From Arctopsyche grandis (lineage: Eukaryota > Arthropoda > Insecta > Trichoptera > Hydropsychidae): 64,000 nucleotides of DNA. The notes under the pieces were generated by a model that saw only the letters and a program-made list of their open reading frames with translations, had not been told where the DNA came from and did no database searches. This document shows positions 9,291 through 59,949 of the stretch, in pieces; the stretch's first letter is position 1; every line of letters begins with the position of its first letter. The stretch covers positions 31,596,290 to 31,660,289 of the forward strand of contig NC_135356.1 in the NCBI RefSeq assembly GCF_051622035.1, given 5' to 3'. A program made the position numbers and the translations under genes.

Positions 9291-9459
9291 ATTTGACAAA
9301 GTTATGTGGCAAGTGCCCATCGGAAGCGCTGCTCGCACGCACGTGACGCAGTCGGCGAAACAGACATAGAGACAGAGACAGAGTGAGTCCGCCAGCCGCG
9401 TTGCTATGCGATAATCCGAACACCAAATTCGGTTGGAAATCGCACGGCACGGTCAGTAG

Positions 9460-9990
9460 CGGTCCGCATTCTGCGGTGAATATACGACGCTGAGCTGCCC
9501 CACTCGCCCACAGGTACGTTCTTATTGAAGCTAATTAGCCCTTTCAATCAGTTGGTTGCGCCATTCATTGCAGGCCGATTCCGATTCCGCGACGCCATTC
9601 TTCATTTTTCCGGCTTTCCCGCATCGGTAGCCGTTTCGTTCGGCAATATCGACGCGCTTTCGTTCTTTGCGCAAACGATGGCCAAGGCCGTGGACGCGCG
9701 TGCCATTTTCTGTCGCGCGGTCACTTCGTTTTAAGTACTATGGTTTGTACAGCTCAAGAAAAAGATCGAGCCTAATGCTGCGAATCTTGCGAGCTCGGGA
9801 ACACTGTTGCATTCGTCGGCTTGCCTGTATGAACATGTACATATGTATGAACCGACCTTGGAATCGCGTCTCGTCTTTTTCGATTGAGCCGTGCGGTGCG
9901 GCCTTTCCGTGTCATTTGCGTGTTTCGCAGCCTCTTTGGACGAATGTTTACGTTGGGCCGTCTCGCTATCAATATTATCACGCGATCCGT
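9460..9990 (+). repeat. GC-richer interspersed repeat related to 62330-62645
   Basis: The segments CGCTGAGCTGCC...CAGGTACG...CCCTTTC and ACCTTGGAATCGCGTCTCGTC recur in the same order at 62370-62640, diverged. The block has higher GC than its surroundings and a CAGGTACGT that looks like a splice donor. It could be a promoter-proximal exon or a mobile element; no protein family is recognised. Confidence 0.45.
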
Positions 9991-10018
9991 GTATCAGTGA
10001 TAGTGTCAGTATCACGAT

Positions 10019-10125
10019 TAAAGGGCGGCCGGAAGCGTGCTTTTTCCAGGAATCAGGGCATTTTGGGTCTATTTAGAAATTAAGAGTCCAAAAAAATGAA
10101 CGGCACGCTTCCGGTCCTACCTCTA
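10019..10125 (+). mobile_element. 107-bp hAT-type MITE (GGACCGGAAGCGTGC family), left-arm copy
   Basis: Inverted termini read TAAAGGGCGGCCGGAAGCGTG and, on the other strand, TAGAGGTAGGACCGGAAGCG. It is flanked by ATCACGAT and ATCATGAT, an 8-bp target duplication with one mismatch. The same insertion is present in the right arm at 59109, so it predates the duplication. It is noncoding. Confidence 0.85.
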
Positions 10126-10494
10126 ATCATGATGATCAATACTAGAATCACGATCCGAGTTAATATTCGTTCCATCAGCACCAAAATGGCGGCTCGACGT
10201 CCCCTTGCATTTCGTTGCTTTGCGAATCGTCGCGAAACTGTTTGCCGCCCTCTCCATTAGCATATCTACAATGTATGTGTGACAATTTTTTTCATCGTTA
10301 TAATACAAAAAATTTACATATACGGTATACTCTCAATTATCCGGGTGCGGATTATCCGTGCATGAAAAATATTAATTTAAAAATTAAATTATTTTTTTAT
10401 ATGATTATGAGACCCACCGATTGATTGCAACCATAAACACGCGTGTTATTTGAAACAAATGATGTCACACAGATTCGCTTAAAAAGTTTTTTTT

Positions 10495-10745
10495 ATAGGA
10501 CGATTCATCATCAACTAGCGATTTAAATTTACTTCATACTTCCATAATAACATTTGATTATAATTGCACTTTTAAATTTTGATTCGTGCATTTTTGAAAA
10601 TTCTATTTATTTTTTACCCTTGATTTTTAGCGTGATGGAAAGAAGAAAATTTTGTTATATGGGGGGGGAAGACATTTTTTTAGCCCTGGGTGGGAGCCCC
10701 CTCTGACTCCTGGCAAGCACTGGTTTCAGTCCCAGTCCGCCACTG
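10495..10745 (+). mobile_element. 5'-truncated hAT remnant, terminus CCGCCACTG at 10745
   Basis: The final 145 bp match the right end of the complete hAT at 38464-39848. The segment around 10495-10560 (GATTCATCATCAACTAGCG) matches its interior. The left terminus is missing. The same remnant is present in the right arm at 58491. Confidence 0.75.
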
Positions 10746-11084
10746 TTTCCGGGAATAAAAATTCGTTCGGTTCGTTCAAAATTCCCATTTTTGCCCATAT
10801 CTACTAAGGGCTGACGAGAGGGGGGGAGGCGGAATAAAGTTTCAGGGCCCGAGTTCACTCTTTTTCGAGTGCTACTACATACATAGTTAGTATATAGTAC
10901 ATTATAAGTTTCAAAATATCACACTGATTAAATGAAAATATCGTAAATGAAAATTATGTCGAATATATTTTTGTTAGTTATAGTCGAATTGAATTTAAAT
11001 ATGCACAACTTTCCAAACACCATATGGATATACATATTTGATAAATATTTAGACTACATAGATTGGGTGAATTTTTTTGTCCAC

Positions 11085-11240
11085 TGCTACGGCGAGCGGC
11101 CACGCTTACAATGTGTACATGTGTTGGTAAAAGTGTTAGCCGAGCGCGGCCTCGGCTGAAGTCGGGCGCACTCGGCTAACGGCGTTCGGCTCTCGGCCGA
11201 GCTCGGCGAAGAAGGGGGGAGGGGGGGGGGGGGGGACTTA
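11085..11240. repeat. GC-rich CTCGGC palindromic region
   Basis: A dense run of CTCGGC/GCCGAG words includes a TTAGCCGAG ... CTCGGCTAA inverted repeat and then a poly-G run near 11213-11235. It lies about 0.8 kb upstream of nanos exon 1 and is conserved in the right arm (57995-58105). The role is unknown. Confidence 0.6.
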
Positions 11241-12012
11241 TGCAACATCTTGACGCCAACGTTCCGTCCAAGCTCTAAGGTGTCTCACACGCGCGCACAC
11301 CTTAGAGGGAACGCTTTCATGGAGCCATCCACACACACGATATCTACTACCGATGTTTCCATATCCAGTTCCCATATTGCAACCTGTGGTCGCTATTTAG
11401 GAACTGGATATGGAATTCGTATTATCGTATTATTACCAATGTTCTTTATTGCGGGTATAAATTATTTTCACACGATAAAAATTAACAAACACATCAATTT
11501 GATAAATATGTAGGTTTTTTTTTAGAAACCCTTTGAACAGACGAAGAACAGAATATATGTATGTACAAGATTTTCGTACAAAATTTCTTATGGTACATAC
11601 TTATCATTTAATGTAATGCTGAGATTATTATTTTCATATTTATCACAACATGTACATTATTTTTAGATTAACCATGCTTAGTAGTTACCTTAACTTACAT
11701 ATACATATGTATGTAAAAGTCCTGATGAATGTTTAATTCTGCGATAAATGACAATGTAAAGTTTCCCATAGACATCACATAAGATTTACCAAACATTTTA
11801 CGGACGTAATAAATGCTTTAAACATGGCTCATCTAATAGTAAACATGTTATTAAATTTATTTGAACAGTTTTATTTTATTTAAATTTATTTGAATATGCA
11901 TTTGTTATTAATTTATTAAATTGTCACGGATTCTACCACCTATTCTATTCTACATTAAACCATCGATATTGTTATTATTTCAGACGGGAAGTGCATAGAT
12001 CGTGATTTTATC

Positions 12013-13256
12013 ATGACTGACGGATTTCGCAATTTCAACAGAGCTGGTAAGTTAAATGAACGCAAACAGTAAATAAGACATTTGAATATTATATTGTAGT
12101 ATGTATGTATAAGTATCAGCAGTGTAATACCCCTCCTCCCCCCCATTGAATTGATATCGATCTCTTACATGGCGACATATGTATGTATATGTAAGTATGC
12201 ACAGGTGTACTTCTTGGAATTATTAACATTCTACGAATCCTCCATGGACTTAGTAAATCTGTTTAATCCTAAAAATTATACGTTTACGTATAATTTCATC
12301 AATTTAGTATCTACATATATATTAATATGTACTTGTTATTATGTCAATAAAATGTGTATCTATAGAATATGAAAAACTGTTTTCAGAATTCTTACATAGA
12401 TTGTATGTACATATGTTTTTAGTTGGACAACACATTCAACCTACTTGGCCCTGTTCTAACGATGAACCATTCGAGATTTCAGCATGGAGTCGCAACGTCC
12501 CAAACAATTCACTGTAAATATTATATAATATAATATTTATATAAAAAATAAGAAGAGCTCAAAAATTTCAAATAAATAATCATTTTATATTTATAGGTAT
12601 GTTCCGAGGAATGTTCCCCGAAAAATCATTGCAACGCCACCTGCAAGTGTTGCGATGCCTTCTTCACAATCCATGACATATTTAGAAACATCACGACAGG
12701 AAATACAGATGTTTACGGTTTCGGAAACTAAACGTGATAATATCAATTTGAGCGATATTTGGGGCATTTCCAATGTAATTAGATATTTATAAAAATCTAA
12801 TAACCTTAATTTTAATGCTTAAAGGTTTAATATAAACCCATTCATACATATATTTATGTACATTTTAGGTCCCGAAAGGAAGCATTTATAAGAATAACAA
12901 ATTTTGCGGTTTTTGTCGTCAAAATGGAGAACATGCGTCAATTTATTTGAGTCATTCGCTGAGGTCACCGACAGGTGCTTTATTATGTCCAATTCTACGA
13001 AAATTCGAATGTCCCCTATGTGGAGCTACTGGTGATATGGCACATACTATGTAAGATATAAGATATCTTAAAATTTGTTGTACACATATGCAAAATGCAT
13101 ACATAGATACATATATTGTGATTGTAAATTATTAAATTTTTTTTCAGAACGTATTGCCCTATTTCACTCAAACAGAATTCAGGAATAAAACCATTGTCTG
13201 TTGCAAAAATGTTGAATTCTACACGACGTAAAAGCAATGGACAGCTACGGTATTAA
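12013..13256 (+). CDS. nanos: nanos-type RNA-binding zinc-finger protein, five coding exons
   Basis: The coding exons are 12013-12046, 12423-12513, 12597-12774, 12869-13050 and 13148-13256. All introns have GT...AG ends, and the joined frame is 594 nt (197 residues plus TAA). The last two exons encode both nanos fingers with exact spacing: CGFC-x12-H-x10-C, then CPLC-x7-H-x4-C, reading CPLCGATGD...AHTITYCP. Nanos proteins bind mRNA with Pumilio and recruit repressors to silence targets in the germ line; this role is family knowledge. The N-terminal half (residues about 1-100) is unstructured in appearance and carries no finger. A 5' UTR intron ends at 11983 (TTTCAG). The start is the first ATG after that acceptor; a longer N-terminus from an upstream exon is possible in one phase. 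No stops or frameshifts were seen. Exons 1 to 3 are duplicated in inverted orientation at 55 kb. Confidence 0.92.
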
Positions 13257-16480: not shown

Positions 16481-16679
16481 ACTTATGATTACATCAAAAA
16501 AAATTGTTGGTGTTTTTATTCAAAATAATTTATTTATTTATTTTATTCTAAACATACCATTGTGGCATAACAGGAATTCCTAAAGCGCCACAATGGTCAA
16601 AAATATAACACAAAAAAAACAAAATAACAATTAAACATAAATTAATACATAACGAAAATAATATACTCATCAATTATGC

Positions 16680-41030: not shown

Positions 41031-41814
41031 TGATATATGTACGTATGTGATGATTTTAAATCGGCCCAAACCTCTTAGTAATATATTTAATTACATTAGT
41101 TTAAGCCGGGATCATAATTTTGATTGAAACCACAATCATTGAAAACTCTTTGATTGAAATATTAATCATGAAATCCCACATATTTGTACATTTGTTGTTG
41201 AAATATTTTTTAAATTGTCTTTTTATTTTATTTATATTTTAGTACATTATTTTATTACTACAGTTTTATTAAATACATTTATTTTTTACAGCATAATACG
41301 ATGCAGTATTTTCAAACGTGTCTAATGGTGCTTACGGACTAAACCAACGACGATTTTGGGCCAACGTTTTAACCAGCAGGATAAAACCAGTAGCGTACAA
41401 AATATCGAAAAAAAAATAAATTTAAAAATTGAAATAAAATATCAAAATTAATACTATTATTATTATATTAAAATTAAATTCAAATATCAAAATAAAATTA
41501 TAATCAATATATTAAGTTTCGATTGATGTACCGACAACGCAACGGATTGCCGGCCATCGCTGGATCACCCATACTAATACATGATATATTCTCAGTGCAT
41601 TACGTGGAAGTAAAAATAATAATTTTTTGATTTTTTTTCGATCTTAGTGCGTATCTTCGTAAGTCAAAACATCTTCGACAAACAAAAGTCGACGATTACC
41701 TGTATGTGATTGTTGATGATCTAATTTTAGGTCAATCTCGAAAATTTATTTAAATTGGGCATGTTCTGTTTTAACTTTCAATATTTTATTTTAATTTTAA
41801 TATATTTATTATAA
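41031..41814. other. AT-rich flank, no gene seen
   Basis: The sequence downstream of the hypothetical gene is AT-rich with no recognised element ends. Parts near 41310-41400 and 41540-41720 have mixed composition but no frame. Confidence 0.45.
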
Positions 41815-42290
41815 TTTTGTCTACTATTACAAACAAAAGAAGACAGTTGGAACTGTGTATCCAAAAGGCTGCTCAAAAAAGCGTCTTAAAACTAGACTTG
41901 CACTCAAGACTAAATGAGACAAATCTATTCCTCCGAACATTGAGTAAACTATTCAATCCACCTGCGGCAGGTTCAAAATCTAATATTAATATTAAAGAAT
42001 CAGTTTTGTTTTTTAGAAACCTGCCATTGTTTAATGTATTAACAGAGGCTCAATGTTTGGAAGGATATCAGCACTTTTTAGACAATTAACACGCCGAATA
42101 TATCGCTATTATTGATGACAACAAAAATTAAATATGAAGAGTTTGGTTGTGCCGCTCTAAAATCTATTTGGTGTCCCGTTAATAGTGTGGATGCTGAATG
42201 GTATTTTAGTAAATACAATATAATTGTTACCGTTCGTTGCACGAATCTGAAAAAATAATCTGTAGAAATATGCTCCATTTTAAGTTTTAA
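41815..42290 (+). pseudogene. hAT transposase C-terminal remnant
   Basis: The open stretch (about 90 codons from 41817) contains NLPLFNVLTEAQCLEGY. After frame breaks, SIWCPVNSVDAEWYFSKYN follows, resembling the hAT dimerisation motif in which a P-V-x-S-x-x-x-E-R-x-F-S pattern is conserved (here AEWYFS in place of ERSFS). Several stops and the missing upstream part show it is dead. No termini were found. Confidence 0.5.
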
Positions 42291-44115: not shown

Positions 44116-44795
44116 TGTAACGAACGGATTTATGAGCGCTTGATGCAGAGGGCGTTATACGTCGTTATTCTTCCAAGAGTCGAGTTATGTAGAAACGTGG
44201 ACTAGCCTTGGGATAGTTATATAGATATGTATATAGTCGGGGAGGTTCCTGACTGCAAGTCGTCTGCGTTGATAACAGCTTCCTCGGGCTCGGGAAGCTG
44301 GCTCTGCGGTCGTCTTCTCGTTGAAGCACCGCTGGTCGGGTCACAGCAGCGGGAGGGGGGAGGCAGGAGACAAACTCCGTACTGCCTCGTGTGGACACAA
44401 GATGGCGATCTCTGGGCGTCTCTGAAGACGCTCGGCGGAGATGCTGGAGGTAGGTCTTTCCCGGCTGACGGCTGGATGTAGAGAGAAGAGGCTCTGCGGT
44501 CCTCTGGTCGGTTCTCTCACGGCTGAGGTTTCTCCGGAAACGGCGTAAGGAATGCAGGGGACGTTGTGCTGGAACTCAGGGGAGGGAGTGATGCTACACT
44601 CGACCTCGCATCGGTTCTTCAGCACTGATGGTGATGGATCTCTGGGCCCCGTCTCCCCCTGGAGACGTGCACAGGAGAGATCTTTCTTCGGCGGCGGTTG
44701 GCGGGTAAGAGGACTATAAGGCTTTTCCCTGGGTGGCCACTCGAAATAAAGGGCGAGTGTTGCCCTATGGGACGATGGGAAAACGTCGCGTTACA
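44116..44795. mobile_element. 680-bp solo LTR (probably Gypsy-type)
   Basis: The segment begins TGTAACGAACGG and ends GTCGCGTTACA, giving TG...CA ends with a TGTAACG/CGTTACA inverted repeat. It is flanked by ATAT at 44112-44115 and 44796-44799 (4-bp duplication). The interior is much more GC-rich than the flanks and contains AATAAA near 44746. There is no gag-pol next to it, so it is a solo LTR. Orientation is tentatively plus because of the AATAAA. Confidence 0.8.
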
Positions 44796-44799
44796 ATAT

Positions 44800-46862
44800 G
44801 TTTGGTAACAGCTCCATAACATATAAAAAAAGGTTACGTAAACGGCTACGAGGAGCGAAAACCACCATAAAATACACTCAATGACTGGGTTATTGTAGTT
44901 GAAGCCGGATCATCTTTGCCAGGATGAATGAAAAATATGTTGTGTTTATATGTATACCTATGTATATTTTATTCACCAGAAACGCCATATTATTTATGGG
45001 TGAGAGAAAAGAACGCCCCACAAAATAGACAAACAAAGGAGACATACCTATTGTAAGGTCATTCCAAGAAATAAATTTTACCGACTAATCGCTAATAAAA
45101 TACCTTTGGTATACATTCGCACAAATTACCCAATGGTCAACGGTGAGAATTTGAAATCAAATGAAGGAAAAGAAAGATTTCAGGATGCTCAACACGATGC
45201 GCAATGGAAATGGAAATATACATATGTATGTAATGTTTAATTCACAAATAATGCAAAAATTTGAAAATATCTGCATTTTTTGTAAGACCAGTACAATCGT
45301 AATTATGGAAACTATAATCAATGACAATATCAGTCTTATGTAGTGTACTCTTACATTGTTTCAATGGACATTATTATCGTAATTATGGAAACATGTTTTC
45401 TTTTATTAATTAATATCTTTTTTGATATTTTAATAAATTTAAATCGTAATTATGGAATCAAAAAGCGATATACTAGCCTACAATCTTGACTAACGAGGAA
45501 AACATCACGGCAGTCAAAGAAAACATCATGAACGAGCCCCCAAAATACTGGAGTCATGACCATTTTATCATAATAATATAATTTTAATAATAATAATATC
45601 ATTTAATAAAAATATCATTTTATTAACATTTTTATTAAAATTGATTTTATATATTATAGATGTACAAAATAGATTTTAAAATCATTATACATACATATGT
45701 AGTAGATAAGTGACTTGTATTTAATGATATTAAAAACACTCACATGAAAGAGATATCAGGTTTTATTTGGCAGAAGGGGAACGAAAAGGGGCAAATCTCA
45801 GGACACGTCAACAATGACTTGCCACTCCTTCTTGAGCGGTGGAAGGAGATGGAAGAAGGGATTTAAATGCTACTCTTTACAATCTAGAGGCTAGCAAAAA
45901 TAGCGACGTACTTTTAATACCCATGGGGCAAAACAGTCAGAAAGGAGAGCTTTCCGACAAGAACAAAGGCGAAACTGTGGACTGAAGCAGAACAATATTG
46001 CAAAGCGGAGCGTGACAACCGAACCAACTATAAATTCAACTATTTCATGAATAAAATTATGAATAATAATAATAATAATAACTCCCAAACAAAAAGGAAA
46101 ACACTCCCAAGGAGCTGGGAGAAGAGATGGAAGCTGTGGCAAACAGTCACTCGACATCCAAAAATTCGAATAATGTGACTAGGCTATACGAGTGGTGCTG
46201 ATTATAAGGACCCGATCACAGTTCCATTCGAGTTAGCAGAAATTAATAAAGAAAAATTAGCCACGTGCCGTACACGTTCGTGGATTAGAAACGATAGTAG
46301 CTAATAGTAAAGCAGCAACCGGCGAAGAGGTTCCTCAATGTGTCGTAATAACTATTTGACAACAATACTCATTGCAAATTCAGTACTGTGGCCTTTAAAA
46401 TTTCCTGCTGCCGGTGAAGCAAATATTAAAATTGGTAAACCAACAATTAGGATGTCCAGAAGGACGAATCATATTTACCAATGTAGCAGCGAAAAAATAA
46501 TATGTGCGACGAGGACTATTAGCTGATGTGTGTTTAGACACTCCCCTTTGCAATGGACATACACTCAACTACGTAGTATGGATGTTCTCTGGACTGGTAC
46601 TACTGTCGTGTCAAAGATTCCTTAAAAATGACAATGTTCGATAAGATACTGTCGAGAGGATAGAAAAAGTATTTCGAATGCCACAATTTGCAGATATTTT
46701 TTGTCTTGCAAAATAACATGCAGGTAATTCTACGCTCAACTTAAGGTACCACTTTTCGAAAATCGCTCACGACGGCAGTTTCGAAATGATGCAATATGTG
46801 ACGAGCAATCTAGGTAAAAAAAAGTATCCGGTTACAAGCACAAATCAAAGGTGACAACTATA
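44800..46862. other. mixed intergenic sequence, no gene supported
   Basis: Parts at 45760-46330 and 46330-46800 have near-coding composition but only short broken frames. They may be decayed retrotransposon or processed-gene sequence. No motif allowed a family assignment. Confidence 0.4.
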
Positions 46863-46869
46863 TTAAGAT

Positions 46870-47166
46870 ATGCAGTGCATTAAAAGTACCAAAGCCCCAA
46901 TGACACGTTTCAATATCCATTCCATTTTTAATGAGGTGTACGTAAGCGGTCCCAATGCTCCGTTTTGGGATGAGGAGCAACATCGTTTATACAACCAGAT
47001 AAAAGCCGGAACCGGTATTAACGATACTGGAGATGACGATAGTCCAAGTTGGAAATTGAGCCTACATATATGTACATACATATGTACCTACATACATGTG
47101 TACTTTTCGTATATATTTGTAAATTTTTACACACATAAGTGTAAGTTCGATGAACTCAAAACCTAA
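46870..47166 (+). CDS. unidentified conserved-looking fragment
   Basis: The frame opens MQCIKSTKAPMTRFNIHSIF and continues with VSGPNAPFWDEEQHRLYNQI, GTGINDTGDDDSPSW and then KLS. Beyond that, TA/CA-type repeats make a low-complexity tail that is not credible protein. The first 65 codons look like genuine coding sequence by composition and charge pattern. I do not recognise the family, and no upstream or downstream exon was found; an exon or pseudogene piece is likely. Confidence 0.3.
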   Translation: MQCIKSTKAPMTRFNIHSIFNEVYVSGPNAPFWDEEQHRLYNQIKAGTGINDTGDDDSPSWKLSLHICTYICTYIHVYFSYIFVNFYTHKCKFDELKT

Positions 47167-47361
47167 TGCGCCTACTGTATTCGCTACAAAAGGCAAACCG
47201 TCGGCAAAGTTATCTGTAAAATCCAATGCAAATACCAAACGAGAACTTCATGGGGGAACATTTTGAAAGCACAACCAAATGTACATCAAGTTCGAAAGCG
47301 AATATTCCATTTGCATTCACTTTAAAAAAAAATAAAGTTGTATCTAATTGTAATATTGGTA

Positions 47362-47366
<5 letters not shown>

Positions 47367-47430
<64 letters not shown>
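47367..47430. repeat. (TA)n microsatellite
   Basis: About 64 bp of uninterrupted TA dinucleotide. Confidence 0.95.
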
Positions 47431-47434
<4 letters not shown>

Positions 47435-48149
47435 ATAATTATTCGAATAATAATTAACAAATAGCTATTCTTACTTGTTGAAATTATGATGTATTTTAAA
47501 TTTTATAAAAACTTCCATAATGCACCCTCGTCAACATCTTTGATTTTGCAAAACCCGTGTTTGTGTGTCAACAGCAACATTTGCTTTTAGCAATTCTAAA
47601 ACCATGTACATACACATATAGATATGCATACATACATATGTCAAAATACTATCAAATTTTAACATGTGAATTTAGAGATGACTATTCATTTAAGCTGAGT
47701 TCCCTCATTTTATTTATCCTCAAGTGCGTATGGTCAATAGTTTTAAAGCATGTTTTTTTCGAAGTTTTCGGTGGTTTTAGATAAAAAAAATCCTATAAAG
47801 TTGATTAAACGTCTCATAAGTTTTGAATGTGCTCAGATTACTATTCGATTGTGGTCATAGAGTGTTAGAACGAGAGTGCTCACAATATTTGAAATACAAA
47901 ATGTTGGATGAAATTTTAGTCAAAATATTTTTTAATTGTACTCGAAAAACAATGTTTATATCAATCAAAGTGCCAGGGAGGCGACCTGGCTCAAAAAGAA
48001 GTACGACCTGGCCTGCGGCGACCTGGCCCGACCTGGCTCGACTACACCACTGCATATATCAATACGCTCGATTTGCCATGAAATATAAATTTCAATACCT
48101 ATGTATCTCTCATAGCTAGTATTTTTTTTAACATTCATAAGTCATTTAT

Positions 48150-48491
48150 TTTATTAATATTTTCTTCTTCTTGTTAATGCCTTGTCCGCATCCTGACGTT
48201 GGCGACCACCTCGTCGATTATTTGAATATACATATCCGCATCGGTCTTCAGCGGCTCGGAACAGCGCTTCGGCGCTCATATCGGTCCACATGCGCATGTT
48301 TCGAAGCCAAGATAACTTTTTCCTGCCAATCCATTTTTTTCCTTCTATTTTCCCCATGGTTTTCAAACGGAGAAATTCGTATTTTGGACCCCGTATCATG
48401 TGTCCGAGGTATTCCATATTTCTCCGCTTGATGACAGAAACAAGTTCCCTGCCTCTCCCCATCATGCCGAGGACAGCTTCGTTTGATATTT
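48150..48491 (-). pseudogene. RTE retrotransposon 3' part (left of a nested LINE)
   Basis: On the minus strand this encodes the RTE C-terminus: MMGRGRELVSVIKRRNMEYL, GHMIRGPKYEFLRL, MGKIEGKKWIGRKKLSWL, then a stop near 48154. The 3' end has a TTCTTCTTCTTG run near 48161-48172. The upstream continuation is found at 49743-49940, separated by a LINE. It belongs to the same family as 8142-9190. Confidence 0.85.
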
Positions 48492-48589
48492 ATTTTATTT
48501 ATTTATTTTTTATTTTTTTATTTAATTTACACCAAGAAGGCCTAACAGGTAAACCCAATGCGCCTTCCTGGCCAAAAACAATTATATAA

Positions 48590-48840
48590 ACATATATGTA
48601 CACCATTCATATATACACAAATACTTCCACGTATACACAAATACACATTCATACATACATAAATATAAAAATACACATATATACATATACATACATACAC
48701 ACCTACACATATATATATATATATATATTCACATATACATACATATACATATACATATACACATACACTTACAATACATACATCCATATACATACAAACA
48801 TTATACATGCATATACACATAAACACATAAATCATTACAA
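48590..48840. repeat. ACATAC-rich simple repeat
   Basis: Degenerate (ACATAC)n/(ATACAC)n with a short (TA)n core near 48710. It lies within the nested LINE between the tail and endonuclease remnants. Confidence 0.85.
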
Positions 48841-49052
48841 TTAGTTATTGAGTTCAATTGACTCATATTTAATAGTTCTGACATAAAAATTTATTCATTA
48901 GGAACAAAATTCAAACTCCTAGGATTAAAATCACCCAAGATCATGACTTTCCTGCCAGCCAAAACATTAAAATTATTTTGCAAATTTGAAAAAAATGAAT
49001 TTATAATTCGGAGGAGATTCATTCGGAGGAAAATGCAGTACACATATTAAAA

Positions 49053-49463
49053 TTAAAAATTCTTTAAGCGAAGTTCAACCCAAATATGTTCACCGATGGT
49101 ATTGAGCTGATCAAAAAGGCGAACAGATTGAAAACTAGCAGCTCGTACAGTGAGAAGTACTCCCCCGCCTCTGCTGCAACGATCCCTCCGAAAAACTAAA
49201 TAGCGGTCATCGAAAAGTTCGCCATTTAAGACAGAATCGCAAATCCAAGTTTCAGAAAAAGCAATTAAGTCATGATCTTGAGCAAGAACAGCAGATAAAC
49301 AAATGTCGGTCTTTGAATTAAGTCCCCTTACATTTTGGTAGTAAACATTTAAGGACTCACAAAAGCGCGCCCGTTCCTTTCGGGTCTTATTAAATTGCGG
49401 TCTTTGTCTTCCGAAAAAGCCACCGACGCAACCCGACTCTCCGCGGCCAAAAAGCAGGATCAA
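49053..49463 (-). pseudogene. LINE endonuclease N-terminal fragment
   Basis: The minus-strand frame contains NVYYQNVRGLNSKTDICL, HDLIAFSETWI and RCSRGGGVLLTVRA, the opening motifs of the LINE endonuclease domain (QNVRGL, E in SETW). The frame fails soon after WVELRLKNF, but the GDFN block is still visible around 48950 in another frame. Confidence 0.8.
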
Positions 49464-49742
49464 AAACCACAGAAAAGTCAGCTGTGCAGACTCCTATTTT
49501 GAATGAAGCATAACTGCCCCTAGCTGATAGTGATTGAACTGTGAAGTTCTGATCAATTCGTCCCAACTTCCTACATATATAATCCCTTATTTGAGTTTCT
49601 GTAGACTCACGTTTCAGATAGAATAAATGAATAAATTGTTTATCGGAGACAGCTTTTAGATGCTCATCTTCAATACCCGAGCAACGGATTAAAGACTGCC
49701 TCTGAGACCGTTGAGACTGAATTGGAGACTTAGACTTAGATA

Positions 49743-49940
49743 TCTTTTTGGTCCACGGAATCTTCAGCATACGCCTATAGACCCACATCTCAAAAGCCTC
49801 AATTCGGCTGATCATCTTGGTTTTCAGAGTCCACGTCTCACATCCGTGTAGTAATACTGTCCAGACGTAGCTCTTCGCGAATCTCAACCGCGTATGAAGA
49901 TTGAGATGCTTGTTTGTAAGCGCCGCCTTCATTTTTACAA
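49743..49940 (-). pseudogene. RTE retrotransposon part (right of the nested LINE)
   Basis: Minus-strand coding reads LRFAKSYVWTVLLHGCETWT, LKTKMISRIEAFEMWVYRRM, LKIPWTKKI and then runs into LINE sequence. Matching residues occur in the RTE at 8142-9190 without interruption. At its upstream edge (49940) it is replaced abruptly by mariner sequence. Confidence 0.85.
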
Positions 49941-50131
49941 AGATCTGAAGAATACGGTGGATGCAGAAGCAATTCGAAGCCCAATTCATGCAATTTTGCC
50001 ATCGTTTTCATTGATTTGTGACACGGTGCATTGTCGATGAAACAGCACAGGACTAACTAAAAATCATATGGATTTAATACTAGTAGCGCCATCTATGTGT
50101 CAGCCTACGAACTTTTCAGCCCACCTAATAT
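49941..50131 (-). mobile_element. mariner element, internally deleted and truncated
   Basis: On the minus strand a terminus TTAGGTGGGCTGAAAAGTTC begins near 50129 and is followed by GTAGGCTGACACATAGATGG. After about 20 bp the transposase catalytic region appears: CFIDNAPCHKSMKTM and LLLHPPYSSDL. The D of the DNAPCH motif is present, but sequence ends before the last catalytic D. The N-terminal DNA-binding half and the other terminus are missing. Confidence 0.88.
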
Positions 50132-50151
50132 GTATGTACATAAATGTAGAT

Positions 50152-51489
50152 CAGTGGTTCTCAGGTGAAATTTCACCGTGGCCGCACAGGTGATAATAGT
50201 AGTCCCTGGTGGCCGCACCAAATTTAATCAAATAAATTAAAGTTACAAAAAAAAATCAATTTATTCATAAAATAAAAGAAATTTTAACATTTTGGTATCT
50301 ATTTATTTAATAATAATGCAATGGAAATTGCTCAATACTCCTTTCTTCAATAAGTTTGCGTCTGTCAGCTGATTACTAAATTTGTTTTTAATAAAGTGCA
50401 TTACACTGAATGATCTTTCGCAATATACGGTAGTGGGAAAAATAGACAATATTAATAATAATAACAATTGTTGCCAAATCTTTATATTATTAAGTACTTG
50501 ATCGTGATTAATTTCTAATAATGCATATTTTACGTTAGCCCAGTTAATTAATCTCAATACTGAAAATGATTTTAATCTATTTTGTAGTACTAGGAAATTT
50601 TCATTTTTCATCATAATAAAAGGGGAAGATACAAAAGAAACAGTTTTAAAAAAATTCAATTCTTCGAACCTTTTATCAAGTTCCAGATTCAGAGATTTAA
50701 GACACTCTATTATTTTAAGTTTTAATTTTAATTTTGAAGTTGTTTCTGTCATCCTATCTATGAAATCACTAACAGAAGATAAAATTGAAAAATTGTCATT
50801 TTCAACTTCTGTCACAAGGCTTTTCGCTATAATTTTTATTTAGTTTGTCAATGATGAGCATGGTTTCTATTATTGTTAAGTTACTTTTTTGTAGTTGTTT
50901 ATTAATCAAGCTAATGTGCGGCAAAAAATTCTTTAGGAATAAAATCGACCCTTTTATATAATTACTTTGAAGCTTTTCACTTAAATCTTTATGATTTACG
51001 GCCAAAGCAGATATATGTAACATAATCATTTAATTCACAAAGACGTTGAACACTGTTATCAAAACTTAGCCATCTAATATGATTGCAATTGAGCAATATA
51101 TTGTGTTTTTCACCGTTGATTTCTCATATAGGACTAAACATGTTCGACAATTTACTACTGGTATTAATTGCATTTAATACTTTTCTCACAGTTAACTCCA
51201 CATCTTCCATGCATTTAATAACAGATTTACTAACTAGCACTTCGAAATATTTCGTTTTCACAGTCTTCGTTAAATAAATTTAATACAACCCTATTGTGAC
51301 TCGAATGACCTCACTCCCATGTGTGCAAGTCAATTTCTTATAGTTCTGCATACTATTGAGAACACACTACGGATCATATTCGCGTGGAAGAATTTTGAGG
51401 TGTTTGTTTTTTGTTGAATACAAGTCAGATGTAATTTTTTTTAAATATTAGTAGTAAAATCCTCTAGTGGCAGCACTTGAGAACCACTG
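50152..51489 (-). mobile_element. 1.3-kb hAT element with CAGTGGTTCTCA termini
   Basis: The left end CAGTGGTTCTCAGG and right end TTGAGAACCACTG are the termini typical of SPIN/Charlie-like hATs. A perfect 8-bp duplication ATGTAGAT flanks it (50144-50151 and 51490-51497). It encodes the C-terminal part of a transposase on the minus strand. The N-terminal region is missing, so it is an internal deletion derivative. Confidence 0.95.
50303..51029 (-). pseudogene. hAT transposase C-terminal region, two frames
   Basis: The downstream frame (50303-50815) contains ILSIFPTTVYCERSFSVMHF and IKNKFSNQLTDANL, the hAT dimerisation domain with the conserved CERSFS. The upstream frame (50802-51029) supplies HISLINKQLQKSNLTII, and the two overlap by a frameshift. 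No catalytic N-terminal block is left. Both lie in the hAT at 50152-51489. Confidence 0.85.
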
Positions 51490-51747
51490 ATGTAGATGTA
51501 CGTGGCAGCCAATTTTTCGTGCGTATCCTTTTGCACGCGGCGTGGGTTCGCCATCGCTGAACGATGCAATGCGATTATCGACCGACCGAACTCGTACTCG
51601 CTCGGAATGGTCGCATAGCATTATACGTAATTCGCACGAGACTTGCGTTAAAAAACGTTGCGCTAAAACTCGGCGTTGGCGCTTTTATAAAGTTCTCGAT
51701 ATGCTTAAAAATCACTCTTGTTTCGTTTCTCGCTTCAGTAAGACGTG

Positions 51748-52042
51748 GAAATGGTTTCTGCTAAATTAATAGCAATAGCGATTTGTGTTGCTAGAAGACG
51801 AAAAAGAAAACAAAAGGCATTCTGGGTGCACCCTCTGAATTAACTCAGATACTTAAAAGGGCAGTTTGTGACACTGTACGAAGAATTGAGGCAATACCCC
51901 GATAAATTTTTTATTGTTACTTTCGAATGTCTATTACAACATTTGACGAACTGTTGACGATAGTGGGGCCTCGAATAACACTTCAAGATACCAACATGCG
52001 TTTGGCGATACCACCTGCACAACGACTAGCTGTTACACTGAG
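51748..52042 (+). pseudogene. PIF/Harbinger transposase N-terminal exon
   Basis: A reading containing RRRKRKQKAFWVHPLN, a stop and QFVTLYEELRQYPDKFF is followed, in another frame, by MSITTFDELLTIVGPRIT, then PPAQRLAVTLR and a GTAAAT donor. These are the opening motifs of Harbinger (HARBI1-like) transposases: FWVHP, the LYEELR block and the F-DELL...P-RLA-TLR block. The DDE domain is not found downstream, where a hAT-disrupted repeat begins. Confidence 0.75.
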
Positions 52043-52346
52043 GTAAATAAAACAATAATTACAAAATTACGAAACAATTTATATTTATTAAAAACTTAGG
52101 TATTAAATTTAACAATCATCTCTCAGATAAGTTAATATAACTTATATTGGTCAAGGGGCTCTGAACAGTTATTGAACTTGATTGGGCAGTGTTGGATGGA
52201 GATGGGCAAATATTTGGGTTGAAAGTGGTAAAAAAGCTTTGTGTGGCGTGTGGCCTAGAACTCGGTGCAGTTGAATTAGCGGGGCGATAAAATTAAAAAT
52301 CTCCTCTCGTTTTTAAATAGCGAAATTCGATATTGTCCTGATAGGT

Positions 52347-52400
52347 GCTACATAACTTTGTCAAATGTTGCAGATGCACAGGATTGGTCCATTATGTCGA
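52347..52400. repeat. left part of a repeat split by a hAT
   Basis: Reverse complement of 9238-9290; the remainder of the same repeat is at 54183-54206, on the other side of the hAT at 52401-54182. Confidence 0.7.
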
Positions 52401-54182
52401 CAGGGGTCGGCAACCTTTTGAGTCGGAAGAGCCAAAAATTACAATTTACAAAATTTCAAAGTTTTTGAAGAGCCACAAAATTTTTTCTTGCCAACAATAA
52501 ATAGTACTGCATAAATAAAGTTTTTTAATAAAAAAAACTAATCTATTTATTCATACATATGTAAGTAGTGTTTTCACAACAAATTAGATAATATATATAT
52601 ATACATATATGGCATTATTAAATAATTACTTATTATTTAAGTAAAAAATTGAAACAATTAAACATTTACTTACAACACTAACTTGTACTTCAATAGCACA
52701 CAATTGAGCAAACAAACGTAAGAATTTCGTGGTTTATTTTGCTCTGAAGAATCGTTGTTGCCCCTTTATTTTTTCCTGTCATACTTCTGGCTCCATCAGT
52801 TGCTATTGAAACGATTTTATTTAAATCGATCTTATTGCCTTCAAGGCATTTTTGCACGGCATTCGCTATATCTTCCCCTCTAGTTTGTCCCGAGAGCGGT
52901 AACAATCCTAGAAGTTCTTCTTTTGGACCTTGGGATGACATATACCTGACAAAAAGGGCAACTTGTGCCGTGTCTTTTATGTCGCAAGACACATCTATAG
53001 CAAGTGATAAGACAGAAGAAAGTTGAATATCTTTCACCTGCAAATATGTTACATTTGAAGACATTTTAGCTATTCTATCTTGTACTGTTTTAGCGGATAG
53101 TGGCAAATCTTTGATTTTTTTCAAGATTTCTGATTTCTTCGCCGGCTGGATATTTACTAGCAAACTCAGTATGGTGTTAGTGAAGTGTCTCTCTAAATTT
53201 GATTTCTTATTGTGTGCGAGTTTTTTTTGGCAAATGAGACAAGTCGGAAGGCCATCTGAGTTGCATATGAAAGCGAACGACTCCATCCAATCCCGATTGA
53301 ATTCTCGATGCTCTTCTTCAGTTCTTCTCTATTTTTTTTGAAGATGCCATGCTTGCGGTGAAGCTGTAATAAAGAATTTTTAAAATTATTATTTAGGTAT
53401 CCAAAACAGCATATGACAAGTTTTGCAATTATTTACTTTGCTTGATCAAGTTTTTCTTGCAAGGACTGTTTAATTTCTAGTTCAACTTTCTCTATGTCAT
53501 TGTCTATTATTTCTATATCGGGCTCTGAAGTATTTGGACATACTTACAACCATGTTTATTATTGATGATTTATTCTTCGCTGTATCGAAGAACTGGACAT
53601 ATAAATATTGTAATAAAACGTACTTACATAAAAATAGATAATCTTCGTACAATTAACAGAAACAACAGCGTCTTAGCACAACACACACACCGCGTAACGA
53701 GATCTAAGTACTTGAAAATCCAAAGTACGACTGAGAAAATCATATTCGATTCTAAATAGCACAGGTCTCATAAAAAGAAAAAAATGTCAATATATGCTTC
53801 GAATATCATTGCAGCTGAGGACAAAATCTGCAACACGATTCAGGCCGTGCGTACCATTTCGTGGAAGCGGCGAGCGGATGACGAAACTGCGAGCTGGGGT
53901 GAACGCTTCACTGCAAACAAATAAATTATGACCGTATTGTTCTTTGTGGAATTCGAGAGCTTCCGACGGACTGACGTCAGTGACGACGCGTGTCACGGGG
54001 GAGGGGTGCGGTGAAAAGCGACTACAAGTGACTCGGTGTGATAGAATCGGTGCCTAATCCTCGTTAATCAATTCAGAACGAATTTAAATATATTTTTTTT
54101 TTTGATAAAATAAATAATGTTTGCGTATGGAACTAAAGAGCCGCAGCTTCACATCCAAAGAGCCGCAGGTTGCCGACCCCTG
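52401..54182 (-). mobile_element. 1.8-kb hAT element with CAGGGGTCGGCAACC termini
   Basis: Inverted ends CAGGGGTCGGCAACC and GGTTGCCGACCCCTG are perfect. A minus-strand transposase N-terminal half is at 52690-53286. The flanking octamers (TATGTCGA and GTCTAGTC) do not match, so the target duplication is lost or the flanks have rearranged. The catalytic C-terminal half is missing. Confidence 0.92.
52690..53286 (-). pseudogene. hAT transposase, GTF2IRD2/ZBED5-like N-terminal part
   Basis: 198 minus-strand codons carry a BED-type finger start ([20 protein letters not shown], then H), a conserved linker, [20 protein letters not shown], then [14 protein letters not shown] and [18 protein letters not shown]. 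The D-x-S-x-D-x-x-D order and DGARSMTG are typical of hAT proteins related to GTF2IRD2 and ZBED5. The second half of the BED finger is shortened (LERHFTN), and the later dimerisation domain is absent. Confidence 0.85.
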
Positions 54183-54409
54183 GTCTAGTCCGTATCTCAT
54201 TGGACCGGAAGCGGAGCGGTCAGAAAGACACACGGTATTCGCAAAGTTTTAGTTAAATTATGTCGAAATGCAGTAAATTCGGACGAGGATTAGTGTTATC
54301 GGGGCAAACCAAATAAGTGATTTTAAATGTACATACATATATCTATGCATATTTGGAAAATATACAGGAAACCACAAATTCGGTAATTATTTTCAAAATA
54401 TTTTATTAG

Positions 54410-54475
54410 CCCTTTGAATGCAAACCAACGCAGATCGGCGTTTTGCCAACAAGTCCCTGTCGAAAATTCAAAAAA
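54410..54475 (+). mobile_element. possible decayed piggyBac-like terminus
   Basis: TTAGCCCTTTGAATGCAAAC followed by CGCAGATCGGCGTTTTGCC resembles the left end of a TTAA-specific element of the 26033 type. No right end was found. Confidence 0.25.
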
Positions 54476-54639
54476 AGTTTACTTTTTTCTGATCTAAGAA
54501 ATTTTTGTTGATTTGTTAAATGGTTTATCGTTTCTGACATAAGTTAGAATTCAAATTTGGGCCAAACTAGACGGCAAACTAGAATACAAACTTTAATAAG
54601 CAATTATCATCAATATTAGAATCGATCACATGGTACTCG

Positions 54640-55074
54640 ATAGCTCTCGACGAAAGTGATGATCGAAAAGATACCCCACAGTTATTAATTTTCATACGCG
54701 GATGTAACTCTAAATTTGAAATTATTGAAGAGCTGTTGTCATTGGAATCACTTAAAGATCAAACAACGGGAGCTGATATTTTTTAAAAAGTTGTTAATTG
54801 CTTAAAAAAAATAACAACTGACAGAACACCAAGTTTGACGGGTAAAAATATTGGACCATTAAAGAAAATCCGGGATAAATTTTCCAAAAAGTGTCCCGAT
54901 TACAATTTAATTATAATTCATTGTATTATACATCAACAAGTATTGTGCAAAAATGTGTTAAAAGTTGAACATTTGACATCTTGTATTATTAAACTTGTAA
55001 ATTTAATACGATCGAGTGGCTTGAAATACAGACAATTGATTGCTATCCTTATTTCTTATCCTTTAAGTTTGTAA
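54640..55074 (+). pseudogene. second GTF2IRD2-like hAT transposase fragment
   Basis: The plus strand reads DESDDRKDTPQLLIFIRG, EELLSLESLKDQTTGADIF, a stop, TDRTPSLTGKNIGPLKKI, and then HCIIHQQVLCKNVL. This corresponds to the central catalytic part of GTF2IRD2-like hATs (TDGAPSMTGKN and HCIIHQE-LC in relatives). The stop and missing ends show it is dead. It ends abruptly where the right arm of the nanos inverted duplication starts. Confidence 0.8.
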
Positions 55075-55091
55075 TTTCAATAATTTCAATA

Positions 55092-55817
55092 ATTATCACG
55101 TTTAGTTTCCGAAACCGTAAGCATCTGTATTTCCTGTCGTGATGTTTCTAAATATGTCATGGATTGTGAAGAAGGCATCGCAACACTTGCAGGTGGAGTT
55201 GCAATGATTTTTCGGGGAACATTCCTCGGAACATACCTATAAATATAAAATGATTATTTATTTGAAAATTTTGAGCTCTTCTTATTTATTATATAAATAT
55301 TATATTATATAATATTTACAGTGAATTGTTTGGACCATGCTGAAATCTCGAATGGTTCATCGTTAGAACAGGGCCAAGTAGGTTGAATGTGTTGTCCAAC
55401 TAAAAACATATGTACATACAATCTATGTAAGAATTCTGAAAACAGTTTTTCATATTCTATAAATACACATTTTATTGACATAATAACAAGTACATATTAA
55501 TATATGTATATGTAGATACTAAATTGATGAAATTATACGTAAACGTATAATTTTTAGGATTAAACAGATTTACTAAATCCATGGAGGATTCGTAGAATGT
55601 TAATATGTAATTCCAAGAAGTACACCTGTGCATACTTACATATACATACATATGTCGCCATGTAAGAGATCGATATCAATTCAATGGGGGGGAGGAGGGG
55701 TATTACACTGCTGATACTTATACATACATACTACAATATAATATTCAAATTTCTTATTTACTGATTGCGTTCATTTAACTGACCAGCTCTGTTGAAATTG
55801 TGAAATCCGTCAGTCAT
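55092..55817 (-). pseudogene. truncated nanos copy (exons 1 to partial 3)
   Basis: Minus-strand exons correspond to 55784-55817 (exon 1), 55320-55399 (exon 2) and 55092-55236 (partial exon 3). Exon 2 is 80 nt instead of 91 because an 11-bp deletion removes AGTCGCAACG plus one base, giving a frameshift. Exon 1 has one Arg-to-His change, and its donor is GTCAGT in place of GTAAGT. Exon 3 stops at the duplication breakpoint, and both zinc fingers are absent. It therefore cannot make a nanos protein. Near-identity to the intact gene means its transcripts, or antisense transcripts across it, could pair with nanos RNA. Confidence 0.92.
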
Positions 55818-55892
55818 GATAAAATCACGATCTATGCACTTCCCGTCTGAAATAATAACAATATCGAAGGTTATTTATGTAAGTATGTAAGG

Positions 55893-56805
55893 CTCCCTCT
55901 TGGGACCTCTATTATTCAATATCTTCATCTTCGATATTGAAAAATGTTTTCAGAATTCAAGTGTACTATTATTTGCTGATGATATGAAGATTTTCAAGAG
56001 AATAGACAACCGAAATGATGCTTTGGCCCTACAAGATGATTTGTTCAGGCTAGAGGCTTATTGCAGCATAAATAAGTTGGAAATTAATGTAGCAAAATGC
56101 TCCTGCATAACCTTTACCAGAAAACTATGTCCAGTTGACTTTCCTCATTCAATCAACGGACATAGACTCACAAGGGTATCGGAAATTAGGGATTTGGGAG
56201 TCTTTTTAAACTCTGATCTATCCTTTGGTAAACATATTGACAATGTTGTAGCTCGAGCGTCGAAGGCCCTCGGGTTCGTCATCCGGTCCTCCAAATGCTT
56301 TACTTCTATTAAATCATACAAAATACTATATTGTGCATACGTAAGAAGTATTGTTGAGTTTGCATCCCAAGTTTGGAACCCAGAGTACTCTGGTGCAAGA
56401 GACAGATTGGAGCGCATTCAGAAGAGATTCTTGATGTACATCAGTAGCCGTTTTGGACTATCCTATACTTCCTATGAAGATGCTTGTAGGTGTCAGCATC
56501 TACTTCCACTTGTCAAAAGAAGGGAGATAGCTGACATCTCAACAATTTTGAACATCCTTAACGGCTCAATCGACTGTCCTCAATTATTGAGCAGACTATC
56601 ATTGCGTGTGCCAAATAGAATGACTAGATGTAATGAGCTCCTTTACATACCTAATACTTTTTCTAATTATGGAAGAAGCTCATTCATCTGGCGTGTAAGC
56701 TCCACCGTCAACACACTAACTTCTGCAATTTCTATGTTTGACTTATTTAATATTAATGCTATACAAGATAGAGTGATTATTGCAAACTTGTTTTTCGATG
56801 ATTAA
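55893..56805 (+). CDS. LINE reverse transcriptase C-terminal half
   Basis: About 300 open residues start within the motif SLLGPLLFNIFIFDI, followed by the catalytic FADD in VLLFADDMKIF. Then come LEINVAKCSCITF, IRDLGVFLNSDLSFGKHI and the C-terminal region with RLERIQKRFLMYI. This is a Jockey/CR1-like RT lacking its first half; no stop interrupts the frame, so the copy is young. The first codon is not a true start; the frame simply enters from the truncation point. Confidence 0.92.
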
Positions 56806-57160
56806 TTTTATTGAAAATTTACGATTGTGATTATGAATTTTTATTTTGATGTATTTATTTTGTCTTTTTGTTTTTTGTTATAAATTATATTATTTTTATT
56901 ATTTCATAATTTTTATCATATTATTATTCTTATTATTTTGATATTTTTATTATACTGTTATATATATTTTTTTATTTTTTATTTTTCTCTAACTATCTTA
57001 CTCTATTATCATTTTTGTTTCTTATTTTAAATGTTTAAGCTTTTCTTTTTTTACCTATATGTGAAAATTATTAATGGTTTACTTAACATAATTATGTTTT
57101 TTTACTATCAATCTATGTAACTTAATAAACTGTAAGTTTTCCAAATAAATAAATAAATAA
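55893..57160 (+). mobile_element. 5'-truncated LINE inserted in the right arm only
   Basis: The insertion is flanked by ATGTAAGG at 55885-55892 and 57161-57168 (8-bp duplication) and ends in an (AAAT)n tail. The left arm lacks it, so it arrived after the duplication. It encodes an RT C-terminal half and about 350 bp of 3' UTR. Confidence 0.93.
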
Positions 57161-57688
57161 ATGTAAGGTTTGTAAGGTGGTAGAATCCGTGACATTAAAT
57201 TTGATAAAATAATAACAAATGCATATTCACATAAATTTAAATAAAATAAAACTGTTCAAATAAACTTAATAAAATGTTTACTATTAGATAAGCCATGTTT
57301 AAAGCATTTATTACGTCCGTGAAATGTTTGGTTAATCTTATGTGATGTCTATGGGAAACTTTACATTGTCATTTATCGCAGAATCAAACATTCATCAGGA
57401 CTTTTACATACATATGTATATGTAAGTTAAGGTAACTATTAAGCATGGTTAATCTAAAAATAATGTACATATTGTGATAAATATGAAAATAAGAATCTCA
57501 GCATTACATTAAATGATAAGTATGTACCATAAGAAAGTTTGTACGAAAATCTTGTACATATATTGTGTTCTTCGTCTGTTCAAAGGGTTTCTAAACAAAA
57601 TACCTACAAATTAATCAAATTGATGTGTTTGTTAATTTTTATCGTGTGAAAATAATTTATACCCGCAATAAAGCACATTGGTAATAAT

Positions 57689-57831
57689 TAGTCACCGGAC
57701 CCAGAAGGTGCCGCGTATTGTTCAAAGGTTGTAAATGCATTGTTAAAGGTTTGCCGAACCTTTTTTTACAAAGGATTTACAAAATGGAACAATGGATAGC
57801 ACTGTGACTATCCTACCTCTAGTAATAATAC
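57689..57831 (+). mobile_element. 143-bp hAT-type MITE, right arm only
   Basis: Starts TAGTCACCGGACCCAGAAGG and ends CCTACCTCTA, flanked by a perfect GTAATAAT duplication (57681-57688 and 57832-57839). The left arm has a single, uninterrupted copy of this octamer (reverse complement ATTATTAC near 11433), a true empty site. Confidence 0.95.
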
Positions 57832-58490
57832 GATAATACGAATTCCATATCCAGTTCCTAAATATGTAGCAACTGGATATGGAAACATCGGTAGTAGATA
57901 TCGTGCGTGTGGATGGTTCCATGAAAGCGTTCCCTCTAAGGTGTGCGCGCGTGTGAGACACCTTAGAGCTTGGACGGAACGTTGGCGTCAAGATGTTGCA
58001 TAAGTCCCCCCCCCCTCCCCCCTTCTTCGCCGAGCTCGGCCGAGAGCCGAACGCCGTTAGCCGAGTGCGCCCGACTTCAGCCGAGGCCGCGCTCGGCTAA
58101 CACTTTTACCAACACATGTACACATTGTAAGCGTGGCCGCTCGCCGTAGCAGTGGACAAAAAAATTCACCCAATCTATGTAGTCTAAATATTTATCAAAT
58201 ATGTATATCCATATGGTGTTTGGAAAGTTGTGCATATTTAAATTCAATTCGACTATAACTAACAAAAATATATTCGACATAATTTTCATTTACGATATTT
58301 TCATTTAATCAGTGTGATATTTTGAAACTTATAATGTACTATATACTAACTATGTATGTAGTAGCACTCGAAAAAGAGTGAACTCGGGCCCTGAAACTTT
58401 TTTCCGCCTCCCCCCCTCTCGTCAGCCCTTAGTAGATATGGGCAAAAATGGCAATTTTGAACGAACCGATCGAATTTTTATTCCCGGAAA

Positions 58491-58770
58491 CAGTGGCGGA
58501 CTGGGACTGAAACCAGTGCTTGCCAGGAGTCAGAGGGGGCTCCCACCCAGGGCTAAAAAAAAATGTCTTCCCCCCCATATAACAAAATTTTCTTCTTTCC
58601 ATCACGCTAAAAATCAAGGGTAAAAAATAAATAGAATTTTCAAAAATGCACGAATCAAAATTTAAAAGTGCAATTATAATCAAATGTTATTTTGGAAGTA
58701 TGAAATAAATTTAAATCGCTGGTTGATGATGAATCGTCCTATAAAAAAAACTTTTTAAGTGAATCTGCGT
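58491..58770 (-). mobile_element. hAT remnant, right-arm copy of 10495-10745
   Basis: Begins CAGTGGCGGACTGGGACTGA and is the reverse complement of the left-arm remnant; present in both arms, hence older than the duplication. Confidence 0.75.
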
Positions 58771-59108
58771 GACATCATTTGTTTCAAATAACACGCGTGT
58801 TTATGGTTGCAATCAATCGGTGGGTCTCATAATCATATAAAAAAAATAATTTAATTTTTAAATTAATATTTTTCAAGCACGGATTATCCGCACCCGGATG
58901 ATTGAGAGTATACTGTATATGTAAATTTATTGAATTGTAACGATGAAAAAAATGGTCACACATACATTGTATGCTAATGGAGAGGGCGGCAAACAGTTTC
59001 GCGACGAATCGCAAAGCAACGCAATGCAAGGGGACGTCGAGCCGCCATTTTGGTGCTGATGGAACGACTATTAACTCGGATCGTGATTCTAGTATTGATC
59101 ATCATGAT

Positions 59109-59216
59109 TAGAGGTAGGACCGGAAGCGTGCCGTTCATTTTTTTGGACTCTTAATTTCTAAATAGACCCAAAATGCCCTGATTCCTGGAAAAAGCACGCT
59201 TCCGGTCCGCCCTTTA
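59109..59216 (-). mobile_element. 108-bp hAT-type MITE, right-arm copy of 10019-10125
   Basis: Flanked by ATCATGAT (59101-59108) and ATCGTGAT (59217-59224). It is the reverse complement of the left-arm MITE with only minor changes. Confidence 0.85.
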
Positions 59217-59949
59217 ATCGTGATACTGACACTATCACTGATACACGGATCGCGTGATAATATTGATAGCGAGACGGCCCAACGTGAACATTCGTCCAAA
59301 GAGGCTGCGAAACACGCAAATGACACGGAAAGGCCGCACCGCACGGCTCAATCGAAAAAGACGAGACGCGATTCCAAGGTCGGTTCATACATATGTTCAT
59401 ACATGTTCATACAGGCAAGCCGACGAATGCAACAGTGTTCCCGAGCTCGCAAGATTCGCATTAGGCTCGATATTTTTCTTGTGCTGCACAAACCATAGTA
59501 CATATATGGTCATTACCATTACGTATATGGTCGTACTTAAAACGAAGTGACCGCGCGACAGAAAATGGCACGCGCGTCCACGGCCTTGGCCATCGTTTGC
59601 GCAAAGAACGAAAGCGCGTCGATATTGCCGAACGAAACGGCTACCGATGCGGGAAAGCCGGAAAAATGAAGAATGGCGTCGCGGAATCGGAATCGGCCTG
59701 CAATGAATGGCGCAACCAACTGATTGAAAGGGCTAATTAGCTACAATAAGAACGTACCTGTGGGCGAGTGGGGCAGCTCAGCGTCGTATATTCACCGCTA
59801 CTGACCGTGCCGTGCGATTTCCAACCGAATTTGGTGTTCGGCCACCTCACAGACTACATGTCGTCTCTCTTGCACCTTACATATTACGCGATACAACCAT
59901 ATACATAACGAAAGCATTTAAATTGCAATTACCGCTTGAGTTAGTACGT

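Follow-up and report, generated by a model that had tools for sequence, protein, structure and literature searches.

Introduction

Nanos is usually a conserved, low-copy regulator of the germ line, and the ampliconic palindromes of Y and W chromosomes carry multi-copy germline genes. The large inverted duplicates of such chromosomes permit gene conversion between their arms (PMC3403216). In Drosophila simulans the hp-tHMG cluster comprises 13 hairpins within ~27 kb, from which Dcr-2-dependent small interfering RNAs (siRNAs) are made (PMC10317233), while the Nmy and Tmy hairpin RNAs silence the Dox genes (PMC10292708). Su(Ste)/Stellate and AT-chX of Drosophila are repeat loci that produce Piwi-interacting RNAs (piRNAs) in the testis (PMC8412364), and S-Lap1/GAPsec of the D. 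pseudoobscura group is an amplified family with antisense-transcribed duplicates, proposed decoy copies and possible drive (PMC6690552). We set beside these systems a nanos-like gene and its broken, inverted counterpart in a 64,000-nucleotide stretch of the Arctopsyche grandis genome (NC_135356.1, positions 31,596,290 to 31,660,289), which in its full length is called the window throughout; it lies on the contig designated C2 among the 189 contigs (475.7 Mb) that were searched.

An earlier note on this DNA had described the two copies as an inverted duplication of the 5' half of nanos and a possible source of antisense or hairpin RNA. In our reading, to which we give a probability of roughly 0.75, they are instead a local view of a nanos-like family that evolves fast and has been amplified in a palindromic, ampliconic array, the right-hand copy being an amplified duplicated pseudogene that was probably carried along as a passenger. 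The reading is built on observed copy numbers, orientations, identities and gene structures, and on the pattern of substitutions.

Results

The inverted arms of the window

Comparison of the window with itself by BLAST gives four collinear inverted blocks, 94.8–96.3% identical by block, with a gap of 42.35 kb between the ends of the arms; the arm positions of the earlier note hold within 2 bp. The arms and their parts are listed below, the arms having been delimited by self-BLAST and by the copies in the genome, and the blocks by self-BLAST.

9416..12741, plus strand: left arm, with the 5' region and exons 1 to 3 (3 in part) of the intact nanos-like gene
55092..59841, minus strand: right arm, a nanos-like pseudogene in truncated form that belongs to the 23 deleted copies
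9416-9738 / 59841-59533: inverted block 1, 95.4% identity
9735-11436 / 59501-57822: inverted block 2, 96.3% identity
11429-11941 / 57688-57175: inverted block 3, 94.8% identity
11958-12741 / 55872-55092: inverted block 4, 96.2% identity
9509..9513, plus strand: end of a putative exon of the 5' untranslated region, CACAG before GTACGT (placed by splice-site words)
12013..12046, plus strand: coding exon 1 of the intact gene, with the ATG
12423..12513, plus strand: coding exon 2, site of the 11 bp absent from the truncated copies
12597..12774, plus strand: coding exon 3; the counterpart of 12741 is the end of the right arm
12869..13050, plus strand: coding exon 4, nanos zinc-finger domain (finger 1 and most of finger 2)
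13148..13256, plus strand: coding exon 5, with the last zinc ligand, the C-terminus and the stop
55319..55352, minus strand: pattern match across the 11-bp deletion
55873..57174, plus strand: fragment resembling a long interspersed nuclear element (LINE), ~1.3 kb, within the truncated copy's intron 1, right arm only
57689..57821, no strand assigned: segment of ~133 bp in the right arm, absent from the left (self-BLAST)

The gene of the left arm is complete, with 197 codons in five coding exons and GT-AG at every border. The acceptor that follows the putative untranslated exon lies just before 11984, and the right arm also holds both of these splice-site words. The predicted product scores 83.2 bits against the zf-nanos profile (PF05741; cut-off 27), has the two CCHC fingers, and aligns to three chains named Nanos in PDB entries 3alr, 5kl1 and 5kl8; the intact copies probably encode RNA-binding proteins.

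The right copy is indeed a pseudogene, as had been proposed. Its exon 2 lacks 11 bp, as seen when the 45-base match at 12470-12514 (plus) is set against the 34-base match at 55319-55352 (minus), with no match in any of 100 shuffles; and it breaks off inside exon 3, at the counterpart of window position 12741, and so is without both fingers. Since introns are kept, the frame is broken and the domain is lost, it is of the duplicated, non-processed kind; the presence of introns rules out a processed pseudogene. The LINE-like fragment (the label is our own) includes a reverse transcriptase (RVT_1) frame at 55891-56805 on the plus strand, scoring 33.6 bits. Given how the arms are oriented, RNA read from the plus strand across the right arm would be antisense to the gene on the left, again as proposed. 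A search of the window against Rfam gave no match.

Copy number and the array on C2

A profile search of the genome yields 81 zf-nanos matches (exons are counted here, not genes), 61 of which fall at C2:30.6-34.55 Mb, 12 at C9:30.15-30.29 Mb, 5 at C2:14.15-14.31 Mb, 2 on C162 and 1 on C3; the clusters of 12 and 5 stand apart from the main array. The exact pattern spanning the deletion occurs in 27 copies. Of these, 4 are intact, two in each orientation; the other 23 carry the deletion, 12 of them forward and 11 reverse. Copies mutated within the pattern escape this count, and the same pattern read backwards gives none. All but one of the 27 are found at C2:31.04-34.28 Mb, the last being on the unplaced contig C162. 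The arms are therefore not a private pair, and a unique duplication is not supported.

Used as a DNA query, with the best 40 of 4838 candidates scored, the left arm returns at least 4 full-length copies at 99-100% identity and at least 17 copies of the right-arm type at 92-95% over the first 2 kb. The five truncated copies compared (of 23) are identical across 781 bp, as are the three intact copies compared (of 4) across 784 bp.

The window recurs in inverted orientation at C2:33442623-33507158, 1.85 Mb away. Across ~63.9 aligned kb the two differ by 19 mismatches and 83 gap positions; three successive 10-kb tiles are free of mismatches, and two short stretches have no match. The right-arm unit also forms a palindrome at 31.757-31.796 Mb, with arms of ~16 kb and a spacer of ~5.5 kb. 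Over ~13.9 kb its inner arms differ by a single mismatch and by 11 gap positions, which makes them a long inverted repeat of more than 99.9% identity, as in ampliconic palindromes, and the next 2.3 kb outwards holds 24 mismatches; one arm differs from the window copy by 34 mismatches in ~13.0 kb. Outside the window, truncated copies face each other in four convergent pairs, 17.4, 17.4, 19.0 and 19.1 kb apart, at 31.77, 32.31, 32.96 and 34.00 Mb.

Relationships and rate of change within the family

The best zf-nanos match of the genome is on C9, and the finger of the window gene is 60% identical to it. Judged by match score and identity, the window gene, called nanos in the earlier note, looks like a divergent nanos-like paralogue rather than the canonical nanos. 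The closest relative found is the single match on C3. Over exons 2 to 5 the two differ at a synonymous rate (dS) of 0.182 and a nonsynonymous rate (dN) of 0.180, with 30, 33 and 26 differences at the three codon positions; the frame is kept, no stop occurs, and all 8 zinc ligands are retained. Exon 1 was not found in 3.1 kb of the C3 copy and was excluded from the comparison. In a simulation in which all 89 changes were neutral, absence of stops together with intact ligands was obtained in 0.18% of trials (P 0.00175-0.0018).

For other finger pairs with dS below 0.9, dN/dS ranges from 0.2 to about 0.7. This comparison took in 15 of the 81 matches, with F1_L008 and G2_L039 out of register, and the range rests on 22 of 105 pairs, none of which involves those two. 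At C2:30.607 Mb (C2:30606001-30609500) a gene model built by eye contains two successive nanos domains, each split over two exons and completed by its own following exon; the structure was read in detail at this one locus, the other loci being covered by tblastn only.

The truncated copies retain the 5' region and most of the splice-site words. At their exon-1 donor GTAAGT has given way to GTCAGT, and the 5' region carries 52 mismatches in 2479 aligned bases, spread through most of its length. Truncated and intact copies differ at 4 of 288 exonic and 8 of 485 intronic positions; for these few sites the exons of the truncated copies are not visibly better conserved than the introns. Five changes could be placed by means of the C3 copy, three exonic ones on the truncated branch and two intronic ones on the intact branch.

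Other features of the window and of the assembly

Three further features of the window are as follows.

29655..29804, minus strand: second nanos-type finger exon, degenerate (zf-nanos match)
40593..41030, plus strand: open reading frame of 145 codons, of no assigned family, co-amplified in the array
40175..62695, no strand assigned: part in common with the 31.76-31.79 Mb palindrome, approximate and gapped

No first-finger exon was seen for the degenerate copy, and its next exon runs into a stop without supplying the last Cys. The 145-codon frame has no Pfam match at E≤5; among the best 40 of 116 candidates there are at least 17 substantial copies, the window's included, in the C2 array and on C162, as well as a 72% similar piece on C6. 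Between the arms lies a GC-rich minisatellite block (31223-37161) with long repetitive open frames, and the segment 46955-47333 recurs at ~622-bp spacing over C2:31740168-31753752, near the 31.76-Mb palindrome, with 20 occurrences among the matches listed.

A homeobox search, in which the best 150 of 159 candidates were scored, places 8 of 103 matches on C2. They all lie between 10 and 29 Mb, with none inside or past the array, and because of these C2 outside the array resembles a gene-bearing chromosome. Homeobox matches also occur on the high-numbered contigs C51, C53, C63, C65, C85, C93, C142 and C174, which may be foreign DNA or pieces that were left unplaced. A COX1 frame of full length, which stays open when read with the invertebrate mitochondrial code, lies at C1:36084329-36085669 inside a chromosome-sized contig, and would be either a fresh mitochondrial insertion or a misjoin.

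Discussion

An ampliconic array with a probable passenger pseudogene

In the mechanism that we favor, blocks of tens of kb within a ~4-Mb ampliconic region (C2:30.6-34.55 Mb) would have been copied repeatedly, often in inverted orientation, and kept or made nearly identical; the near-identity would stem from gene conversion, from recent segmental duplication with inversion, or from the two together. One type of block carries the intact gene for a nanos-like protein of 197 amino acids (4 copies), and another a truncated derivative, from which the 11 bp and the finger exons would have been lost before its amplification to 23 copies. The right arm is one such intron-containing duplicated pseudogene, most likely spread by segmental duplication and palindrome formation, and the truncated copies in general are probably passengers of that process.

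Several points weigh against this reading. The P value of the neutral simulation rises to 0.030 if only half of the 89 changes were neutral, and the C3 copy may itself be broken, since its exon 1 was not found; for both reasons the data point to rapid change under a preserved frame but do not prove it. An internal stop occurs in 4 of the 81 zf-nanos matches, and the intact copies may be silent. The rise of the truncated unit to 23 copies might hint that the unit itself confers some advantage, and identity this high can also arise from duplication in the assembly. The sequence read from the ~4-Mb array consists of the window, 200 kb of tiles (20 of 10 kb each) and 13 short loci.

The array could owe its near-identity to the assembly, with allelic or repeated reads laid down several times and inverted. 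The inverted copy of the window, with its 19 mismatches in ~64 kb, differs less than ordinary heterozygosity would have it, and an unplaced contig holds related pieces, both of which speak for such an error; it would, however, have to produce one and the same deletion in 23 copies, copies that range from identical to about 8% different, distinct flanks, and an order of landmarks that is not visibly mirror-symmetric across the whole array. We regard an artefact as improbable. A mirror-image haplotype of the whole array likewise seems unlikely from the table of landmarks, read by eye, and the earlier note's own caveat, that the arms might be allelic haplotypes wrongly joined, is unlikely given 23 deleted copies in both orientations with copy-specific differences.

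Another rival reading likens the inverted pairs of truncated copies to a hairpin-RNA or Su(Ste)/AT-chX locus. Bidirectional transcription of these copies, or transcription that runs across a palindrome, would supply double-stranded RNA (for siRNAs) or precursors of piRNAs, by which the intact nanos-like genes would be repressed in trans. The number of truncated copies (23), their two orientations (12 plus, 11 minus) and their near-identity, the four convergent pairs just 17.4-19.1 kb apart, the nearly perfect complementarity of palindrome arms and a setting rich in retroelements all suit this proposal. It has precedents in Drosophila: in D. simulans 13 almost identical hairpin RNAs are described in one cluster, along with paralogues of which some are full-length and some truncated (PMC10317233), and further examples are the silencing of Dox genes by Nmy/Tmy (PMC10292708), the antisense and decoy models for S-Lap1 (PMC6690552) and AT-chX (PMC8412364). 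The loops are nevertheless long (17-42 kb); no nanos-bearing inverted pair above 150 bp and closer than the two arms was found within the window by self-BLAST, nor any inverted repeat of 60 bp or more in the one array tile so searched (L028, of 20); the retained 5' end would be expected to drive sense, not antisense, RNA; and conservation, with 4/288 exonic against 8/485 intronic mismatches at these few sites, does not visibly favor the exons. As for the read-through hairpin of the earlier note, the antisense geometry stands, but a transcript of ~50 kb would be needed in the window, across 96 AATAAA words on the plus strand and several retroelement frames between the arms; the four convergent pairs are better candidates. 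Small RNAs from the array are possible, and a silencing role for the truncated copies is unlikely in our estimation. Slightly less likely again is an intragenomic arms race that has drawn in a nanos-like family of germline repressors, in which intact copies amplify and change fast while small RNAs of the inverted broken derivative restrain them; it would play out on a palindromic array that spans megabases, far more than the ~27-kb hairpin-RNA cluster (PMC10317233). Sense RNA from the 5' region of the truncated copies might, alternatively, act as a decoy by binding small RNAs or repressors whose targets are the intact genes, a role proposed for non-functional copies in the Drosophila S-Lap1 system (PMC6690552) and compatible with the retention of that region and of most splice-site words; the altered exon-1 donor and the mismatches through most of the 5' region speak against it, and we hold a decoy to be very improbable.

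With 81 zf-nanos matches, of which 61 lie in a ~4-Mb palindromic array, a locus that reads as a double-domain gene and one pair whose dN nearly equals its dS, this genome would be a new example of conflict-gene behavior in a core germline regulator. The 11-bp deletion can serve directly as a tag for asking whether broken copies silence intact ones. Among the matches listed in open-licence PubMed Central (PMC) literature on nanos expansions and pseudogenes, which in the parts of text consulted concern vertebrates, planarians, other animals and some insects, no comparable nanos array or expansion appeared.

Comparison with known systems

The array can be placed beside three small-RNA or conflict systems. 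With hp-tHMG and Nmy/Tmy, the C2 array shares inverted repeats that are nearly identical and stem from a gametogenesis gene, accompanied by paralogues both full-length and truncated; unlike in those loci, its arms are 17-42 kb apart. AT-chX has a relation to vasa, and with it and Su(Ste)/Stellate the likeness is that of a repeat locus, whereas the truncated copies here keep a sense 5' region. S-Lap1/GAPsec is likewise an amplified family with non-functional copies, but it sits on the X and the Y and comes with expression and small-RNA data, whereas the nanos-like array sits on one chromosome.

In architecture the array resembles the palindromes of Y and W chromosomes, with which it has large inverted duplicates in common; C2, with its 8 of 103 homeobox matches, does not resemble a gene-poor Y or W, and the amplified gene is nanos-like. 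With Nanos proteins (PF05741) at large, the window gene shares the zf-nanos domain and its eight zinc ligands, and the family differs from them in its many divergent copies, in at least one double-domain locus, and in one pair of copies for which dN/dS is near 1.

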